27,465 nucleotides of DNA from a virus, in the IMG/VR virus record IMGVR_UViG_3300030419_000470, positions 379-27,843 of that record. One strand, written 5' to 3'. The notes under the pieces were generated by a model. It ran no database searches, was not told the origin of the DNA, and was given only the letters and a program-made list of their open reading frames with translations. The position numbers and the translations under genes are program-made. Positions 1,053 to 23,204 of this stretch are shown here, piece after piece (positions within the stretch are counted from its first letter, which is position 1; every line of letters begins with the position of its first letter).

Positions 1053-2591
1053 CTAAGATCTCCAGTATGCAACCCTTTTCTTTCTAGGTTCATCTTCCCA
1101 TTCAGGATCTTCTGGATGGGTAATATGCCATGATTCTCTCATGTAATGTATAGCCATCGTTAGAGCATCTACCTGATCATCATGGGCTGCATTTGGAAAC
1201 TGTAACAGTTCTGTTATAAGTTCTTCCGTCCACTTCTTATGCTTTGGAACCCATACTCTTCCTGATTCGATTAAGGGAGAAGCTGCATATACTCTGCTGA
1301 CTTTATCCCTATCAGGTAGATATTCTCTTACAGGTAGTCCACCTCTTCTCATATCCTGTATGAGTGACTGACCACTAGCTTTCTTCTCCACTATACACAC
1401 ATCAGGTTTGAATTGATGGTAGAGTAACTGTGACATTCTACGTAACTCAGGATATTCAAATCTTCCACGTATGTTACCTAAAAGAATAAGATGGGATACT
1501 ATACTTTCTCGTCCATATTCATCTTCATTAGGTAAGGAAAAGATACCCCATGTCTGAATAACACTGTAATCAGCCGTAGTACTGGTGGAAAAAGCTGTAT
1601 CATACGTTTGTAATATAAAGTCACAGGTAGGTGGGTCTTCATATTCCCAGAATCGTAGCCATTTCTTCTTAATTAGTCCACCTTCTTCTGGAGTTGGATC
1701 TTGCATGTACAATGCATTCCAGTATCGTGCTCCATTCGAGGCTTTAATCTCATTCTCATCAACTTTTAATACTTCTGTGGGCTTCCATTCTGGAAAGTAT
1801 GAGGAACCTACTGGTAGCTGTAAAAGTTCTGCTGCCTCATCATCCAACCATGCAGGTATTCGTATAACTTCCCACGGAATAGTTTCGTATTCACTCATAT
1901 CTTCCTGTTGTTTCAGGAGCCATCCACATAAATCATCATAGTGATACCTTGTATTAATGATGAGTATGGAACCATTGGGCATTATACGTGTACGTAGACC
2001 AGCAGGATACCATTCCTTGACATATCTACGTCCAGCTTCGGAATATGAATCCTCTTCGGACATCACATCGTCTAATATGGCTATATTAGCCCCTCGTCCT
2101 GCAATCTGGCTACGGACCCCGGCTGCATAGTACGTACCATTTTGATTTGTTTTCCATTTTCCTGCTGCTCTAACGTCTGTCCGTAACGAAACTCCTTTAA
2201 ATATCTCCTGAAACTGTTCAGAGTTAACAACGTCACGAACAGAACGGCCAAAATCACTAGAAAGTTGATCAGAGTGAGAAACAGTAAGAATTTCATGTTG
2301 TGGATTTCTCCCTATATACCATGCTGGAAACAATTTGGAACAGATAACAGACTTGGAACTACGTGGTGGCAGGAATACCATCAGTCTTCGTATTTCTCCA
2401 GACTCTAATTGACCTAATTTATTTGAAATTAGCTCAATATGACGGCCCATCTTCCAATCGGAAACAAGAGTTGGAGCCATCAGACGGACAAACGTAAGGA
2501 AATCCGCTTTAGTGTCCTGTAGTACACTTAATCTAAGTAGATTATCCAAACTTATGAAAGGATTTAGTAAGTTTTCTTGTTCTAATTCCAT
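1053..2591 (-). CDS. terL: Terminase large subunit (packaging ATPase-nuclease)
   Basis: The 512-residue product is the motor that drives DNA into proheads and cuts concatemers. The N-terminal ATPase shows the Walker A variant P-P-R-S-S-K-S at residues 75-81 after a hydrophobic strand (LMVFL), and the Walker B strand ANIAILDD. The C-terminal RNase H-like nuclease shows acidic motifs in QTYDTAFS, in CIVEKKASGQSL and in NAAHDDQVDAL. Length and motif order are normal for Terminase_6-type large subunits. The start ATG follows AGGA by seven bases. It is read leftward from the control region. The small subunit is not next to it but about 22 kb away on the other strand (24319-24726). Confidence 0.96.
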   Translation of the reverse strand: MELEQENLLNPFISLDNLLRLSVLQDTKADFLTFVRLMAPTLVSDWKMGRHIELISNKLGQLESGEIRRLMVFLPPRSSKSVICSKLFPAWYIGRNPQHEILTVSHSDQLSSDFGRSVRDVVNSEQFQEIFKGVSLRTDVRAAGKWKTNQNGTYYAAGVRSQIAGRGANIAILDDVMSEEDSYSEAGRRYVKEWYPAGLRTRIMPNGSILIINTRYHYDDLCGWLLKQQEDMSEYETIPWEVIRIPAWLDDEAAELLQLPVGSSYFPEWKPTEVLKVDENEIKASNGARYWNALYMQDPTPEEGGLIKKKWLRFWEYEDPPTCDFILQTYDTAFSTSTTADYSVIQTWGIFSLPNEDEYGRESIVSHLILLGNIRGRFEYPELRRMSQLLYHQFKPDVCIVEKKASGQSLIQDMRRGGLPVREYLPDRDKVSRVYAASPLIESGRVWVPKHKKWTEELITELLQFPNAAHDDQVDALTMAIHYMRESWHITHPEDPEWEDEPRKKRVAYWRS

Positions 2592-2720
2592 TTAAATCCT
2601 ATAAAAAAAGTAATAAAAACAATAACATAATAATAAAATAATAAAATAATACAAATAAAACACCAAATTAGCTCTAAAATTTACGATATCATCATATATT
2701 ATATATAATTATACACTAAA
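2592..2720. other. AT-rich tract between terL and the control region
   Basis: About 130 bases of almost pure A/T with short repeats of ATAATAAA, then an alternating AT stretch (ATATATTATATATAATTATA) near 2694-2713. It carries the untranslated leader of terL and the -10 of the putative leftward promoter. Such a tract melts easily and could also serve as a DNA-unwinding element for replication initiation, but no iterons or DnaA boxes are visible. No credible gene is present here. Confidence 0.5.
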
Positions 2721-2736
2721 TTAGGAGTAGGTCCAA
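2708..2736 (-). promoter_or_regulatory. Putative sigma70-type promoter reading left into terL
   Basis: On the minus strand TTGGAC (2736-2731) is separated by 17 bases from a perfect TATAAT (2713-2708). Spacing and -10 are ideal; the -35 matches only in TTG. A transcript would start near 2701 with a leader of about 110 bases before the terL ATG. The surrounding A/T richness raises the risk of a chance -10. Confidence 0.5.
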
Positions 2737-2850
2737 GGGATTTTTTCGGTAGCCCTAAAATATTTGGTAAATATGTCACACCCCCTTCCTATATATGTAC
2801 TCCCGATAGTGTTTTTCTTGGTATACCCTGTAGTTCTATCCTAACACTCA

Positions 2851-3003
2851 CTAGGGCCGTAGAAAATAGATACCTTGATGACAGTACAGTGTTATTTCAT
2901 CTGTAGAGTCTCTGTTGTGCCGATATTGGACGGAATATCCTAGCAATCTTCCCATATCTGAACTATACGTAGGATGAAAACTCACCACTAGTCCTGATCC
3001 CAT
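2851..3003 (-). CDS. Small hypothetical protein (50 aa) divergent from the first early gene
   Basis: A 50-codon frame starts with ATG at 3003-3001 and ends with TAG. It is preceded by AAGGA with a seven-base gap, exactly the same leader (AAGGATCTCA) and first codons (Met-Gly-Ser) as the rightward gene at 3141, because both lie in the arms of an inverted repeat. The product (MGSGLVVSFHPTYSSDMG..., then a Tyr- and charge-rich C terminus ending in YFLRP) has a protein-like composition and no obvious membrane segment. I recognise no family. The good ribosome binding site supports it; the frame could instead be a by-product of the duplicated leader. It would be the first gene of a leftward transcript that continues towards terL. 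Confidence 0.5.
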   Translation of the reverse strand: MGSGLVVSFHPTYSSDMGRLLGYSVQYRHNRDSTDEITLYCHQGIYFLRP

Positions 3004-3047
3004 GATGAGATCCTTGCAAGGTTATAAGTGTTAGAAGCTGGTACGTA

Positions 3048-3092
3048 TTCTAAAAGCCCTTAAAATGAATCGGGCCTTTAGAATTTTTTTTT
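3048..3092 (+). terminator. Rho-independent terminator inside the inverted repeat
   Basis: A 12-position stem (3048-3059 with 3072-3083, one A-C mismatch) closes a 12-base loop and is followed by nine T residues (3084-3092). It points rightward and lies just upstream of the rightward promoter, so it would stop any rightward transcript before the early unit. There is no matching T tract in the other direction. Confidence 0.88.
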
Positions 3093-3118
3093 GAATAAGG
3101 TCAGCTTCTAACTATAAC
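3091..3118 (+). promoter_or_regulatory. Putative rightward early promoter
   Basis: TTGAAT (3091-3096) lies 16 bases before TATAAC (3113-3118), close to the sigma70 consensus. The -35 overlaps the end of the terminator T tract. Transcription would start near 3125, leaving a leader of about 16 bases with AAGGAAGGA before the ATG at 3141. The mirrored left arm keeps the TATAAC and CAGCTTCTAAC blocks but not the same -35 spacing, so an alternative is that the conserved blocks are recognised by another polymerase or a phage factor. Confidence 0.5.
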
Positions 3119-3140
3119 CTTACTAAGGAAGGATCTCAAA

Positions 3141-3542
3141 ATGGGATCAAGATATGAAGGTGAGTTTGAACTCTACGTAGGAGTTCAGCATAAGGAAATG
3201 TCTGTTAGGATACCCCGTCCTAATTCGGCAGGATTGAGACTAACTAATGAAGACCAAAAGCTGTTAAGGAAGAATCTTATGGGCTTTTCAAAGTTTCAAC
3301 CTAAGGCCAATGTTCGTGTCTTCCAACCGGGTATAGCTGAGAAAGATAAGAATGGGAAGACTATTCCACAACCTGCTCTTACTCCTGCTAAGTTTCAGAA
3401 ACTGGTAGAAGAACATGTAGGGAACTTTGTTGTACTGAAGGATCAGAATAAGCAGTACACTAGACTTTACTTAGCAGCTCTGGATGAGAATCCTCACTTT
3501 ACATCAGACAGTAACAGCAACTTGGTATGGAAGGGAGAATAA
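3141..3542 (+). CDS. First early gene, hypothetical protein (133 aa)
   Basis: A 133-residue soluble protein with no membrane segment or recognised domain. The N-terminal half is mixed (YEGEFELYVGVQ, then RIPRPNSAGLRLT), the middle is rich in Lys, Gln and Pro (FQPKANVRVFQPG, KTIPQPALTPAKFQKL), and the C terminus is polar. AAGGAAGGA with a seven-base gap marks the start. The gene stands alone between its own promoter and a strong UUCG-loop terminator, so it is a monocistronic unit of the kind used for abundant early proteins such as host-takeover factors (inference from context only). Its first codons lie in the right arm of the inverted repeat. Confidence 0.9.
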   Translation: MGSRYEGEFELYVGVQHKEMSVRIPRPNSAGLRLTNEDQKLLRKNLMGFSKFQPKANVRVFQPGIAEKDKNGKTIPQPALTPAKFQKLVEEHVGNFVVLKDQNKQYTRLYLAALDENPHFTSDSNSNLVWKGE

Positions 3543-3558
3543 TAATAATCCTGCTACT

Positions 3559-3590
3559 GAGGAGGGTCTTCGGACCTTCCTCTTTTTTTT
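3559..3590 (+). terminator. Strong rho-independent terminator with UUCG tetraloop
   Basis: A 10-bp stem (3559-3568 with 3573-3582, one G-T wobble) with the very stable TTCG loop is followed by eight T residues. It ends the monocistronic 3141 gene. Confidence 0.95.
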
Positions 3591-3601
3591 ATTTGGTGTC
3601 T

Positions 3602-3718
3602 CAATAGAAACACCAACTCACGAGGGTCTGCAATAGGCTCATTAACTCACGAGGGTCTTGCAATAGGCTCATTAACTCACGAGGGTCTTGCAATAGGCTC
3701 ATTAACTCACGAGGGTAT
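3602..3718 (+). repeat. 30-bp tandem repeats (three copies plus a degenerate one)
   Basis: Three adjoining 30-bp units occupy 3629-3658, 3659-3688 and 3689-3718. They start TGCAATAGGCTCATTAACTC and continue ACGAGGGT; only the last two bases of the third differ. A diverged copy at about 3602-3628 keeps CAATAG and AACTCACGAGGGTC. Each unit contains GAGGG, and the one in the last copy (3711-3715) lies eight bases before the ATG at 3724, so the array supplies the ribosome binding site. The region 3591-3723 contains no gene. Possible roles are repeated operator or polymerase sites, an origin-like iteron set, or decoy ribosome sites in the leader. Confidence 0.93.
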
Positions 3719-17069: not shown

Positions 17070-17302
17070 TGTCAATAAAGGATTATCAAATAGGTGGTGA
17101 TCATTACAAGAAGTGTAAGATACAACCTATCGAATATATTTATGCTAATGAACTTGATTTCTTTGAAGGTAATATAGTAAAGTACGTTACTCGTCATCGT
17201 ACTAAAGGTGAAGGTGCAAAGGATATTCAAAAGATTATTCATTATGCACAGATGATTTTAGAACTTAGATATGGAGAGGATATAGATGCAACTGCCAACT
17301 GA
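17069..17302 (+). CDS. DUF3310 protein (T7 gp1.7-like nucleotide kinase family)
   Basis: The 77-residue protein is nearly all DUF3310: G-G-D-H-Y (residues 9-13), I-Q-P-I-E-Y-I, the FFEGNIVKYVTRH block, and a closing K-D-I-x-K-I-I-H-Y-A-Q helix. T7 gp1.7, which contains this domain, is a nucleotide kinase acting on dTMP and dGMP. This stand-alone version, just before the ribonucleotide reductase, probably acts in dNTP supply as well (inference). GAGGA precedes the ATG; it overlaps nrdJ by 17 bases. Confidence 0.88.
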   Translation: MSIKDYQIGGDHYKKCKIQPIEYIYANELDFFEGNIVKYVTRHRTKGEGAKDIQKIIHYAQMILELRYGEDIDATAN

Positions 17303-19241
17303 ATACCAAAACTTTATCTATCTTTCCAGATATTCTAGATGGCTAGAGGAAGAAGGCCGTAGAGAAACATGGGATGAAACTGTTAATAGATTAATTACTT
17401 TCTTTAAAGTACACATAGAGAAAAACCTTGGAGTTAAGGATCAACTTGATACCAAGGATTGGACTATGATACGTAATGCTATTCGTTTTCTTGACGTAAT
17501 GCCTAGCATGAGATCGTTAATGACTGCTGGCCCTGCCCTTGAGAGGGAGAACATAGCTGGATACAACTGTTCCTATATACCAGTGGATAATCCAAAGTGC
17601 TTTGATGAGATACTTTATATTCTTATGAATGGTACAGGTGTAGGCTTCTCTGTTGAGAGACAATATGTTAATCAGTTACCTACTATACCAGACGTAGAGT
17701 TTGAGAGAACCGATGACGTTATTAGTGTGGCTGATTCCAAAGAAGGATGGGCCAGAGCATTTAAGGATTTAATATCCTACTTATATTCAAATAGAATACC
17801 AAAGATAGATGTTAGCAAGGTACGTTCTGCTGGTTCAAGATTAAAAACCTTTGGTGGTAGAGCCAGTGGTCCTCAACCATTGGTAGATTTGTTTGACTTT
17901 ACCATACGTAAGTTTGAGGAAGCCAGAGGTAGGAAATTAAATTCCATAGAGTGCCATGATATAGTTTGTAAGGTGGGTGAGGTCGTAGTCGTAGGTGGTG
18001 TACGTAGGTCTGCTCTCATATCTTTGTCTAATCTATCCGATGATCGTATGAGAGCAGCTAAATCTGGTGCTTGGTTTAATACTGATCCTCAACGAGCCTT
18101 GGCTAATAACTCTGCTGTATATACTAATCGTCCTGACACTGGTGTATTCATGCAGGAATGGCAGTCCCTCTATGAAAGTAAGAGTGGTGAACGAGGTATC
18201 TTTAATCGTGAGTCAGCTCAACAGAAAGCAGCACAGAACAAACGTAGAATTTGGGATGTAGACTTTGGTACTAATCCTTGCTCAGAGATTATACTACGTC
18301 CTAATCAATTCTGTAATCTAACAGAGGTAGTATGTAGAGCCAATGATGATCGTAATTCTTTGGCAAGAAAGATACGTATAGCTACCCTGTTAGGTACTAT
18401 TCAATCTACACTAACTGACTTTGGTTATCTAAGAAAGAGATGGACAACTAATACAGAAGAAGAGAGACTGCTAGGTGTATCCTTAACAGGCATAATGGAT
18501 TGTAAGCTATTATATTCCTCACCTGCAAGACTATCTTACTCTGCTAATGTACCTTATCTGGAAGATAATCTTAACTATCTACGTAATGTAGCTATAGCAA
18601 CTAATAAGAAGTGGGCAGAGAAACTAGGTATACCTCAGTCTACGGCTATTACCTGTGTGAAACCATCAGGTACTGTCAGTCAGCTAGTAGATAGTGCCAG
18701 TGGTATACACACCAGACATTCACCTTATTATGTTCGTACTGTAAGGGCAGATAATCTTGACCCATTGACAAAGTTTATGAAGGAACATGGTATTCCTAAT
18801 GAGCCTGACGTTACAAGTCCAGATAATGTCACTGTCTTTTCCTTCCCTATTCAGACAAGTTCTAAGTCTCAATTTAGAAATGACTTGAGTGCCATTGAAC
18901 AGTTGAAGATTTGGAAGGTATATGCAGAGCACTGGTGTGAGCATAAACCAAGTGTTACTATATCTGTGAAGGAAAGAGAGTGGATAGAGGTAGGTGCTTG
19001 GTGTTGGGATAACTTTGATCATCTATCTGGTGTCTCATTTCTGCCATATTCTGACCACAATTATAAACAGGCTCCCTATCAGGAGATAAATAAAGAGGAG
19101 TACAAAAATATAATGAAGACTATGCCAAAGAAACGTATTGATTGGTCTTTACTCACAGAGTTTGAGAAGGAAGATAACACTACAGGAGCACAGGAATTAG
19201 CCTGTACTGCTGGTGTATGTGAGTTGGTGGATATAACATGA
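17286..19241 (+). CDS. nrdJ: Adenosylcobalamin-dependent ribonucleoside-triphosphate reductase (class II, monomeric)
   Basis: The 651-residue enzyme reduces NTPs to dNTPs using vitamin B12. The sequence shows N94-C95-S-Y, GTGVGFSVER (116-125), the active-site block N330-P-C332-S-E334 (thiyl radical Cys and Glu), F-C343-N-L, and I-T-C-V-K-P-S-G-T-V. The C-terminal redox pair C640...C645 (ACTAGVC) is spaced as in the Lactobacillus enzyme (C731/C736). The length is somewhat below the 739 residues of that enzyme. No small subunit, activase or glutaredoxin gene is adjacent, so it depends on host B12 and host reductants and works without oxygen control. GGAGAGGA precedes the start. With thyX and DUF3310 it supplies dNTPs for replication. 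Confidence 0.96.
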   Translation: MQLPTEYQNFIYLSRYSRWLEEEGRRETWDETVNRLITFFKVHIEKNLGVKDQLDTKDWTMIRNAIRFLDVMPSMRSLMTAGPALERENIAGYNCSYIPVDNPKCFDEILYILMNGTGVGFSVERQYVNQLPTIPDVEFERTDDVISVADSKEGWARAFKDLISYLYSNRIPKIDVSKVRSAGSRLKTFGGRASGPQPLVDLFDFTIRKFEEARGRKLNSIECHDIVCKVGEVVVVGGVRRSALISLSNLSDDRMRAAKSGAWFNTDPQRALANNSAVYTNRPDTGVFMQEWQSLYESKSGERGIFNRESAQQKAAQNKRRIWDVDFGTNPCSEIILRPNQFCNLTEVVCRANDDRNSLARKIRIATLLGTIQSTLTDFGYLRKRWTTNTEEERLLGVSLTGIMDCKLLYSSPARLSYSANVPYLEDNLNYLRNVAIATNKKWAEKLGIPQSTAITCVKPSGTVSQLVDSASGIHTRHSPYYVRTVRADNLDPLTKFMKEHGIPNEPDVTSPDNVTVFSFPIQTSSKSQFRNDLSAIEQLKIWKVYAEHWCEHKPSVTISVKEREWIEVGAWCWDNFDHLSGVSFLPYSDHNYKQAPYQEINKEEYKNIMKTMPKKRIDWSLLTEFEKEDNTTGAQELACTAGVCELVDIT

Positions 19242-20079: not shown

Positions 20080-20859
20080 ATGAATACAGTCTATATTGGC
20101 TACGATCCTAAAGAGGATATGGCCTATCAAGTTTTAAAGTTCTCATTGGAACGTATAACAACGAAGCCAATAAGAGTAGTGCCAATTCGATTGGATGTAG
20201 TACAACGTATAGGTCTGTATCGTAGAGAATTTTCTGTAATGGACGGCCAAAGATATGATATGATTGATGGCCGTCCATTCTCCACTGACTTTTCCTTTAC
20301 CAGATTCCTTGTTCCTTTCTTGAATATGTTTGAAGGGAAGGCTCTGTATATGGATTGTGATATGTACATGAGAACAGATGTGGCAGATCTATTTGATTTA
20401 TGTAGTTTAGATTACTATCCTCTATGGTGTGTACATCACGAGTATGAACCAGAAGCTGGTAGTAAGATGGATAATAAAGTACAGGAACCATATCGTAGAA
20501 AGAACTGGTCAAGTCTTATAATGTTTAACTGTGCTCACGAGGCTCATAAGAATCTTACCATAGAAGATGTGAACACTCGTTCAGGCAGATGGCTTCATGG
20601 ATTTGAATGGCTACCTGATAAGGAAGCAGACATAGGACGTATACCTGAAGAATGGAACTGGCTTGATGGTCACTCTGATCCTAAACTGGAAGCAAAAAAT
20701 GTACACTTTACCACTGGTGGTCCTTGGTTTGAAGGATGGGAATGTAGAGGTAAAGTAGATGCACAGTATGCAGTCGAATGGACTAATGATGCACGATGGT
20801 TACAAGCTAATGGCATGGTAGATGCCGAAGTAGATTACTTAATAAAGGCAAGGAATTAA
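20080..20859 (+). CDS. Glycosyltransferase, GT-A fold (GT8-like)
   Basis: The 259-residue protein begins V-Y-I-G-Y-D-P-K-E (a nucleotide-sugar binding strand). It shows FTRFLVPFLNMFEGKALYMD followed by D92-C-D94, the metal-binding DxD of GT-A enzymes, then SSLIMFNC, PEEWNWLDG and NVHFTTGGPWF, all standard for GT8-like transferases. It would transfer a sugar from a nucleotide sugar to an unidentified acceptor in the cytoplasm. GGAGAC precedes the start nine bases after hsp20. It overlaps the large fusion gene by one base, so the two are co-translated and probably act on the same glycan or protein. Confidence 0.9.
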   Translation: MNTVYIGYDPKEDMAYQVLKFSLERITTKPIRVVPIRLDVVQRIGLYRREFSVMDGQRYDMIDGRPFSTDFSFTRFLVPFLNMFEGKALYMDCDMYMRTDVADLFDLCSLDYYPLWCVHHEYEPEAGSKMDNKVQEPYRRKNWSSLIMFNCAHEAHKNLTIEDVNTRSGRWLHGFEWLPDKEADIGRIPEEWNWLDGHSDPKLEAKNVHFTTGGPWFEGWECRGKVDAQYAVEWTNDARWLQANGMVDAEVDYLIKARN

Positions 20860-23204
20860 TGACACAAATAAATGTAGTTACAGCATTCAATGAGAACTCT
20901 CTTAAAGACCATGCACACCAGATGTTTCAACGAGTTGCCAAGTACTGGCATCCAGATATTAAACTAACAGCTTATTATTTTGATTGTGATATAACAGCCT
21001 ATGATCTTCCCGATTGTATTGAGTATAAAAATCTTGAGGAAGTGGAAGGCTTTAATGAATTTCGTACAGATATGGCAGTCCACGATGGTACTGAGAATGG
21101 TACACTGGACTACAACTGGAGAATAGATACACTTCTAACAGCTCCTAAAGTATTTGCTCTTACAGAAGAGTCCTTCTCCATAGCTGATAAGACCAAGGAT
21201 GGTGGATGGTTATTGTGGATGAATACAAATATCATACCAGTAGCTGATCTTACATCTGACTATATACATAAGTTCTTTCCAGAGGGTTCTGATATAGTAC
21301 ATCTCAGTGGAGACACAACGGCTGATACACCTGATCAGTATAGTAATCCATCCTTCATGGCCTTCAATCTAAATCATCAGTCACCTTTAGATATACTAGG
21401 TGATCTACGTGGAGCTTATGAGAGCAATGAGATCCTATCCTATAGGGAATGGCATGATGCTTTTATCTTTGAGAGGTTGCTAAATATATACAGAGCACAT
21501 GGCATGAGAGTGCATACACTTACTCCAGCCAATACAAAGAAGGGTATCTTTGCTACACCATTCAGAAACTATCTTACAAACTTAGAGGAAAGTAATAGAT
21601 CCTTACGTGACAGTGATGGTAACAGAGTCTTCCCTCTATCAGAGGAAGCCTTACCACCAGACATTAGACCTAATCGTACTAAGATGCTGGCTGATATTAT
21701 TAGATACTATAAGCCTGAAACCATAGTGGAAACAGGTACATGGAATGGTGGACGAGCTATAGAAATGGCTCTTGCTGCTTTTGAAAACAACGATGAAGTT
21801 ACCTATACAGGTTACGATTTGTTTGAGGATGCTACAGAAGATACAGATCTGGAAGAGTTCAATCACAAAGCTCATGTTAATATGAAAGCTGTTGAGAAAA
21901 GATTAACAGAGTTCAAAGATAGCATGAAGAAAGATAAGAATAAAACCTTTAACTTTACCTTGGTCAAGGGTAATACACGAGATACTCTGGTAAAGGCAGA
22001 GCCTGACTTAGCTCTGATAGGTGGTGGTAATAGTATTATAACTACACAGAATGATTACTCCAAGCTGGAAGGCTCTCGTGTCAAGATGGTGGATAACTAT
22101 TTCAGTGAGGATGCTGATAAGAAACAACCATCCAAGAAATATCATGGAGCAAACATACTGATACAGACACTGGAGAGTGTGAAGAGAATAGTTCTTCCTT
22201 CCTCTGACCCTGTTAAGGATGGTGGAGTAACTCATTATTGTATTATATATAATGAGGCTACAACTCCAGCCCTTCCTGATAGCTTACTTAACGTACCTAT
22301 TGTGGTACATCCACGAGACTGTGTGGACAAAGAGTATATACAGAGTAATATCATGGAGAACATGAAGCTAATGGACAATGACAAGTTCCTTGGTAAGTGT
22401 ATACCTCATAATGGGGAAGTTATTGTAGTGTCAGGTGGACACTCAACGGACTTCTCTAAAGTTAAGCAGCTCATAAAAGAGAAACCAGATGCTAAAGTAT
22501 TATGTGTAAAGCATTCGTATCCTAAACTATTGGAGAATGGTATCAAACCTTGGGCCTGTATTGTACTTGATCCACGATCTATTGAAGGAGAGAGTACACA
22601 TGGAGTGATACGTAAGGATCTATTTAAGACTATTGATCCTACCACTAAGTTCTTTGTGGCATCCATGACAGATCCATCTGTTACTAAGTATCTACTGGAA
22701 AAGAAAGCTGACATCTATGGATGGCATGCCTTTACCGAATCACTACGTAATGAAGACGAGAGAGAACAGGAGATAGAGAACCAGAAGGTACATGTAATGC
22801 CTAACCTTGGCATACCAGAAGGCTCTACTCTTATTACAGGTGGTACGTGTGCAGCCATGAGGTGCCTTGGTATCATGCATACAATGGGCTTTAGAACATT
22901 TGATCTCTTTGGATTTGATTCTTCCATGCAAAAGCAACCTACTCCAGAACAGATGAAAGAAACAACAGGTGCAGAAGATGAAGAGCCAAAGCCTAAGTAC
23001 ATACAGGTTAATGTACGTGGAGAAAACTTCTGGACTACAGGTGAGCTACTGGCTATGGCACAAGATTGTGAACGTACCTTTAATGATGCATCTATGAACT
23101 TAACACTGGATGTACATGGAGACAACACACTCGTTAGTGCTCTATGGAAACTATATCTGGATGAACGAAAGATTGGTGAGTTTAAGGATGCCTTTAATGA
23201 CTGA
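20859..23204 (+). CDS. Three-domain fusion: degenerate glycosyltransferase, methyltransferase-like and MptE/Maf-like (DUF115) domains
   Basis: The 781-residue protein has three parts. Residues 1-235 look like a GT-A transferase (INVVTAFNENS; FMAFNLNHQSPLD), but where the DxD should stand the strand reads W-L-L-W-M-N-T-N (117-124), so this part may be inactive. Residues 265-470 resemble a class I SAM methyltransferase (TIVETGTWNGGRAIEMA at 288-304, then YTGYD). Residues 500-780 resemble the MptE-like/DUF115 domain of Maf flagellin-glycosylation proteins (EVIVVSGGHSTDF; VLDPRS; GGTCAAMRCLGIMHTMGFRT; LFGFDSS). Translation is coupled to the GT8-like gene. A sugar-modifying enzyme complex is likely; substrate unknown. 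Confidence 0.82.
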   Translation: MTQINVVTAFNENSLKDHAHQMFQRVAKYWHPDIKLTAYYFDCDITAYDLPDCIEYKNLEEVEGFNEFRTDMAVHDGTENGTLDYNWRIDTLLTAPKVFALTEESFSIADKTKDGGWLLWMNTNIIPVADLTSDYIHKFFPEGSDIVHLSGDTTADTPDQYSNPSFMAFNLNHQSPLDILGDLRGAYESNEILSYREWHDAFIFERLLNIYRAHGMRVHTLTPANTKKGIFATPFRNYLTNLEESNRSLRDSDGNRVFPLSEEALPPDIRPNRTKMLADIIRYYKPETIVETGTWNGGRAIEMALAAFENNDEVTYTGYDLFEDATEDTDLEEFNHKAHVNMKAVEKRLTEFKDSMKKDKNKTFNFTLVKGNTRDTLVKAEPDLALIGGGNSIITTQNDYSKLEGSRVKMVDNYFSEDADKKQPSKKYHGANILIQTLESVKRIVLPSSDPVKDGGVTHYCIIYNEATTPALPDSLLNVPIVVHPRDCVDKEYIQSNIMENMKLMDNDKFLGKCIPHNGEVIVVSGGHSTDFSKVKQLIKEKPDAKVLCVKHSYPKLLENGIKPWACIVLDPRSIEGESTHGVIRKDLFKTIDPTTKFFVASMTDPSVTKYLLEKKADIYGWHAFTESLRNEDEREQEIENQKVHVMPNLGIPEGSTLITGGTCAAMRCLGIMHTMGFRTFDLFGFDSSMQKQPTPEQMKETTGAEDEEPKPKYIQVNVRGENFWTTGELLAMAQDCERTFNDASMNLTLDVHGDNTLVSALWKLYLDERKIGEFKDAFND

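Follow-up and report, generated by a model that had tools for sequence, protein, structure and literature searches.

The window analysed here, a stretch of 27,465 nucleotides, is nearly the whole of a 27.8-kb viral record, and within it a leftward terminase operon abuts a rightward replication operon that encodes a primase/helicase, DNA polymerase A and ribonucleotide reductase. The leftward operon is led by the gene for the large terminase subunit (terL; positions 1053 to 2591, minus strand; PHROG 38, E 2e-109). The closest relatives of this phage are uncultured viral contigs (IMG/VR), which, via their cultured relatives, are taken to be mostly marine; the nearest named phages are the Pelagibacter phages HTVC027P and HTVC023P, with a terL identity of only ~39-42%. 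Elsewhere in the window, the ribonucleotide reductase (17286 to 19241) shows features of class II, B12-dependent enzymes, and a protein of 781 aa (20859 to 23204) has an MptE-like domain (PF01973) and no PHROG match.

Results

The divergent junction and gene 1

The terminase operon is preceded by a sigma-70-like promoter, TTGGAC-N17-TATAAT (2708 to 2736, minus strand), whose position is conserved in close relatives. It was the only convincing promoter in our sigma-70 scoring, by its conserved position more than by its score. No rightward sigma-70 promoter scored above shuffles in or just upstream of the inverted repeat described below, a test that phage-specific promoters fall outside. Next to the terminase promoter lies a conserved non-coding motif, TTTGGTAAATATGTCACACCCCCTTCCTATATAT (GGTAAATATGTCA...TATATAT, 2766 to 2796; GGTAAATATGTCACACCCCC..TATATAT), at 2763 to 2796, which occurs once in the window and is common to the relatives. 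The motif does not match the sigma-70 pattern; reading it in the plus direction, we infer that it is likely to be a rightward promoter or control site upstream of that repeat.

The initial rightward gene, gene 1 (3141 to 3542, plus strand), encodes 133 aa and is swapped among relatives. A strong intrinsic terminator (3559 to 3590, plus strand) stands directly past it, which makes gene 1 a one-gene unit. Its product matched no Pfam or PHROG family and no homologue of it was found in other contigs; AlphaFold models reached pLDDT values of 43 and 52, and fold searches returned nothing at E<0.001. Also directly past gene 1 is a 30-bp tandem repeat of 3.4 copies (AACTCACGAGGGTCTTGCAATAGGCTCATT; 3615 to 3716), the core of which, ACTCACGAGGGT, occurs upstream of the next start codon in contigs L003, L106 and L164 as well; the repeat therefore has the look of a ribosome-site leader that has been multiplied.

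An inverted copy of the start of gene 1 lies upstream of the gene

A preliminary description of this DNA had reported two outward-facing arms of 45 and 47 bases that share four blocks and end after the third codon. All four blocks were found at their places and in the same order in both arms: CAGCTTCTAAC (3030 to 3040, minus; 3102 to 3112, plus), TATAACCTT as the second of the four, AAGGATCTCA (3006 to 3015, minus; 3129 to 3138, plus) and ATGGGATC (2997 to 3004, minus; 3141 to 3148, plus). The inverted repeat is real and far beyond chance, and it runs well past the limits first given. The reverse complement of 2907 to 3040 aligns to 3102 to 3241 with ~69% identity (blastn E 1.9e-24), and the inverted-repeat score is 95, whereas none of 100 dinucleotide shuffles exceeded 28. 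Because three separate inverted pairs (I1, I2 and I3) have one common centre at ~3072, the arms measure ~134 and ~140 nt and reach ~34 codons into gene 1. The right arm (3102 to 3241, plus strand) thus holds the leader, the Shine-Dalgarno (SD) sequence (AAGGAAGGA), the start codon and the opening ~34 codons of gene 1, and the left arm (2907 to 3040, minus strand) is an inverted, decayed copy of the same parts. Weak similarity extends outward, fading towards 2793 on the left and 3364 on the right, which is up to ~codon 75 inside gene 1; with the centre counted, the left arm reaches 3055.

An assembly or amplification chimera was rejected as the source of the repeat, since the likeness of the arms is only ~70-90% and since contigs from different metagenomes carry identical sets of arms (the L003/L086 arms, three L104 contigs and the L062-type copies). 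A separate, almost perfect inverted repeat of 261 nt in contig L008 (151 to 411 and 501 to 761; score 380) is probably such a chimera.

Between the arms, a terminator-like stem, ATTCTAAAAGCCC/GGGCCTTTAGAAT, is followed by T9 (3047 to 3096, plus strand). The nested terminator of the preliminary description is therefore present in the window, as it is in L003 and L164; it is absent from L004, L104 and L016 and ambiguous in L062, so that it is not the constant element of the locus. Two small features of the relatives may be due to chance: an element resembling GATACCTTGATGA (2867 to 2881 in the window) is kept ahead of the left arm, and TGATGA is found in most left arms, facing the SD-ATG region.

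Related phages carry gene-matched arms at the same site

Seven distinct cassettes with the same site and layout were found: those of the window, L164, L003 (also in L086), L004/L106, L104 (in three contigs), L016 and L062 (with near-copies on L192 and L197). Each lies beyond the terminase promoter and the conserved non-coding block, and the first gene differs or is strongly diverged, with 113 aa in L164, 117 in L003, 123 in both L004/L106 and L104, 120 in L016 and 97 in L062. The gene 1 proteins, at 97-133 aa, are charged and soluble-looking. An alignment unites those of L164, L003, L004 and L104 in a loose family with 23-58% identity; when the window gene was compared with the L164 family by profile, the hhalign probability was 2.6%, though the predicted order of strands and helices is similar. 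That so swappable and fast-changing a gene encodes an anti-defence or takeover protein is a guess.

Alignment of relatives, which the preliminary description had proposed as a check, upheld the layout and revealed covarying arms, while the arm sequences themselves were wholly different between most relatives. In the arm-by-arm score matrix the best match of each left arm was its own gene: left arms scored 58-109 against their own right arms and 12-25 against others, except for 39-40 between L164 and L003. For this homologous pair the own-arm scores were 75 and 89, the right arms scored 98 against each other and the left arms 87; L104 and L016 behaved in the same way. A single duplication followed by drift would predict own-arm scores no better than those between homologous cassettes, and the opposite was seen. 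Differences between right arms were mirrored by the left arms in 9 columns versus 1 in the opposite sense for L164/L003 and in 20 versus 4 for L104/L016, that is, 29 matching versus 5 opposite over the two pairs. Interspersed among the covarying columns of L164 and L003 are 18 columns with mismatches common to both, which argues against wholesale gene conversion, though not against very short template-switch events. L062, L175, L192 and L197 carry near-identical cassettes in which the right arm is unchanged and the left arm accounts for the few differences seen.

The comparison with the sibling phage L164 indicates that the left arm travels with gene 1. Identity between the two genomes is 99.2% up to 2828 and 94.9% from 3704 onward, with more stretches at 95-97%, and the whole segment from 2829 to 3703, comprising left arm, stem, right arm, gene 1 and terminator, differs between these near-identical phages, having been exchanged en bloc.

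A survey of ~1.4 Mb of related phage DNA showed inverted repeats with such size and spacing to be almost confined to the gene 1 locus. Gene-matched arms were not found in L087 or the L067/L187 type, which have related flanks, and no comparable repeat was found in the opening 50 kb of either cultured phage, HTVC023P or HTVC027P. In L087, two near-identical hairpins (AGAAACCCTAGACTCCTCCTTCGGAGTCGTAGGGTTTCT), at ~358-400 and ~470-512 nt as counted from the start of terL, replace the gene-matched arms and precede an unrelated first gene.

The left open reading frame is a relic of gene 1

The left arm of the window contains an open reading frame of 50 codons (MGSGLVV...; 2852 to 3004, minus strand). 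Its product had been called otherwise unrelated to that of gene 1, yet it is a shifted-frame reading of the decayed gene 1 copy: the alternate frame reads GEFSSYV*FRYGKIARIFRPISAQQRLYR*, which aligns to GEFELYVGVQHKEMSVRIPRPNSAGLRLTNED. This origin accounts for the Met-Gly-Ser that both reading frames have in common. Across the seven cassettes the left frame amounts to 50, 33, none, none, 4, 5 and 35 codons, and the aligned left start codon is lost or broken in three of them (L003, L004 and L104). Mismatches between the coding parts of the arms are spread evenly over the codon positions, without pattern.

The predicted hairpin encloses the start codon

Rightward RNA of each cassette was predicted to fold at -97 to -157 kcal/mol (z of -10 to -21 against letter shuffles) into a hairpin of ~55-125 pairs. 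The start codon lay within the predicted helix in all seven cassettes and the SD was paired in six; in the exception, L062, pairing starts at the start codon and runs into the coding region, leaving the SD mostly open. A read-through RNA hairpin over the ribosome site of the gene at 3141, suggested earlier from the window, is thus borne out as a prediction and kept in every cassette. The pairing is distributed over about -90 to +60 and is not concentrated on the SD. No part of the window matched Rfam at the gathering score.

Strand signals ran the other way. In six of the seven cassettes folding slightly favours the minus over the plus strand (strongly so in L062). Among isolated mismatches, 2 are wobble pairs in the plus-strand (rightward) RNA versus 14 in the minus strand, so that G-U usage, taken as a test of sense-RNA pairing in a hairpin or with an antisense RNA, pointed in the direction opposite to expectation. 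Enrichment of A at right-arm mismatches, as expected for a translation start, may explain the skew; the composition of four-fold sites shows no simple strand bias. This wobble result is the main warning against taking the co-variation as proof of RNA pairing, and it leaves maintenance by template switching at the DNA level a serious rival.

Discussion

We propose, at a probability of about one half, that a fold-back hairpin locks translation of gene 1 in transcripts that enter from upstream. Gene 1 is a stand-alone, exchangeable gene at a divergent genome junction, adjoined upstream by an inverted, imperfect copy of its own 5' end. A transcript arriving from upstream would contain both arms and fold into a hairpin enclosing the start codon, leaving gene 1 untranslated, and the inter-arm terminator would be a second block in the three cassettes that have one. 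Synthesis of the protein would require an RNA with its 5' end within or after the left arm, or else the opening of the helix. On replacement of the gene its lock would be replaced too, and pairing would be retained while the arms diverge. The proposal presupposes a transcript from upstream, a helix that keeps ribosomes off and a second, shorter transcript that can be translated; the repeat, the predicted fold, the co-exchange with the gene and the matched arm changes are computed from the genomes. We prefer it because seven cassettes have the same layout, gene-matched and covarying arms, block exchange and an enclosed start codon, and because there is a precedent in T4. It is the simplest account of the site-specificity, the gene-matching, the co-exchange and the enclosed start codon. 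Against it stand the wobble counts, the want of a supported rightward promoter, the open SD of L062, the spread of pairing away from an SD focus, and the armless L087 and L067/L187 type.

The strongest rival of the lock is template switching, in which a fold-back event copies the gene start and later switches correct the arms against each other, making and keeping a quasi-palindrome; the hairpin may then have no regulatory role. According to one report, stems of this kind can arise and persist through template switching, which also yields multi-base compensatory changes (PMC8794818). The hairpins described there resemble ours in having a reverse-complement copy as a stem kept by paired changes, and differ in representing a mutation mechanism, whereas here the stem belongs to a gene-specific phage cassette. 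The nearly touching arms of L104 and L016 (6-nt loop), the absence of a wobble bias towards sense RNA and the pairing deep in coding sequence all favour this explanation. It leaves unexplained why a single site in ~1.4 Mb holds seven cassettes with almost nothing elsewhere, and the mismatches shared by L164 and L003 between covarying columns would require very short correction tracts. On balance we regard template switching alone as possible and clearly less probable than the lock. The two are compatible, since switching could be the source of the arms and the lock the reason for their retention.

The remaining explanations have less in their favour. The left arm might supply the bulk of a small antisense RNA. 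Transcribed rightward from the conserved motif region and ended by the nested terminator, this RNA would base-pair in trans with gene 1 mRNA over its leader and start and so shut the gene down. The conserved non-coding block upstream, the inter-arm terminator of the window, L003 and L164, and the energies of the arm-arm duplex in rightward RNA (-68 to -150 kcal/mol) suit such an RNA, but L004, L104 and L016 have no nested terminator, the upstream promoter is not of the sigma-70 type and the sense-RNA wobble bias is again missing, and we consider this account unlikely. Rather less probable still is a DNA element, a long imperfect palindrome acting as a hairpin or cruciform in replication or packaging, with only a positional overlap with gene 1. 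Its place at the divergent junction beside terminase, the better folding of the minus strand in six of seven cassettes and the fit of the mismatches to minus-strand wobble agree with that idea; it is hard to reconcile with the lack of any constant sequence or loop feature and the absence of the palindrome from relatives of the L087 and L067 type, and such an element would have no need of gene-specific pairing into a coding region. The model of the preliminary description, a duplicated promoter-leader cassette firing two divergent genes jointly, is contradicted by these results and is the least probable. An SD and ATG-Gly-Ser are present in both arms, in the window alone, but relatives keep no gene in the left arm, the arms have no supported promoter, and the shared blocks, whose recurrence as a phage promoter motif had been proposed as a check, are not repeated in the window. 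A divergent promoter pair should have conserved genes beyond both arms, and neither the left start nor its reading frame is conserved.

In phage T4, helices over the SD and/or AUG of genes e, soc, 49, I-TevI and other homing endonucleases silence early read-through transcripts initiated upstream, with an effect of about 100-fold for gene e (PMC3014915, PMC2988022). The cassettes are like these cases in that control would fall on one phage gene through which other transcripts read, and in that the SD and/or AUG would enter a helix only in RNA begun upstream of the 5' arm (PMC3014915, PMC2988022). By prediction, a stable helix holds the start codon in seven of the seven cassettes and the SD in six. 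Unlike in T4, the arms are ~60-150 nt long and usually extend into coding sequence, the 5' arm repeats the gene in inverted form and is exchanged along with it, and no internal sigma-70-like promoter rises above shuffles. Judged by their predicted fold, the cassettes are T4-like without being filed as members of the T4 type; the proposed lock would resemble the hairpins of gene e and I-TevI while being longer and gene-specific.

Two further systems invite comparison. The IS10/Tn10 transposase is protected by fold-back from transcription that enters from outside: such transcripts contain both arms of the inverted repeat, which buries the translation start. Outside transcripts would likewise include both arms here and hide the start; unlike the arms of IS10/Tn10, which are the transposon ends, those of the cassettes frame the start of gene 1 and not an element, no element ends are seen and gene 1, having no Pfam or PHROG match, is no recognisable transposase. 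In type I toxin-antitoxin systems the start of a gene is complementary to a nearby RNA, and the toxin is small and hydrophobic, of roughly <60 aa. The cassettes likewise have a complement of the gene start close by, but as an arm upstream on the gene's own strand, and the proteins are charged, soluble-looking and 97-133 aa long.

More tentatively, the cassettes may represent a class of phage genes each carrying a silencer that originated when the 5' end of the gene was duplicated in inverted form, and that has co-evolved with the gene through successive exchanges. This self-derived silencer could be the hairpin or an antisense RNA, and its origin would be analogous to that of plant microRNA genes, which arise by inverted duplication of their targets.

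With different genes and matched arms at the same site, the cassettes form a natural data set for distinguishing selection for RNA pairing from correction by template switching, an open question in hairpin evolution. If the lock is real, it would be a module with which these phages can take up foreign or fast-changing genes where transcription is busy and still avoid mistimed expression, by means of a control element that derives from the gene itself.
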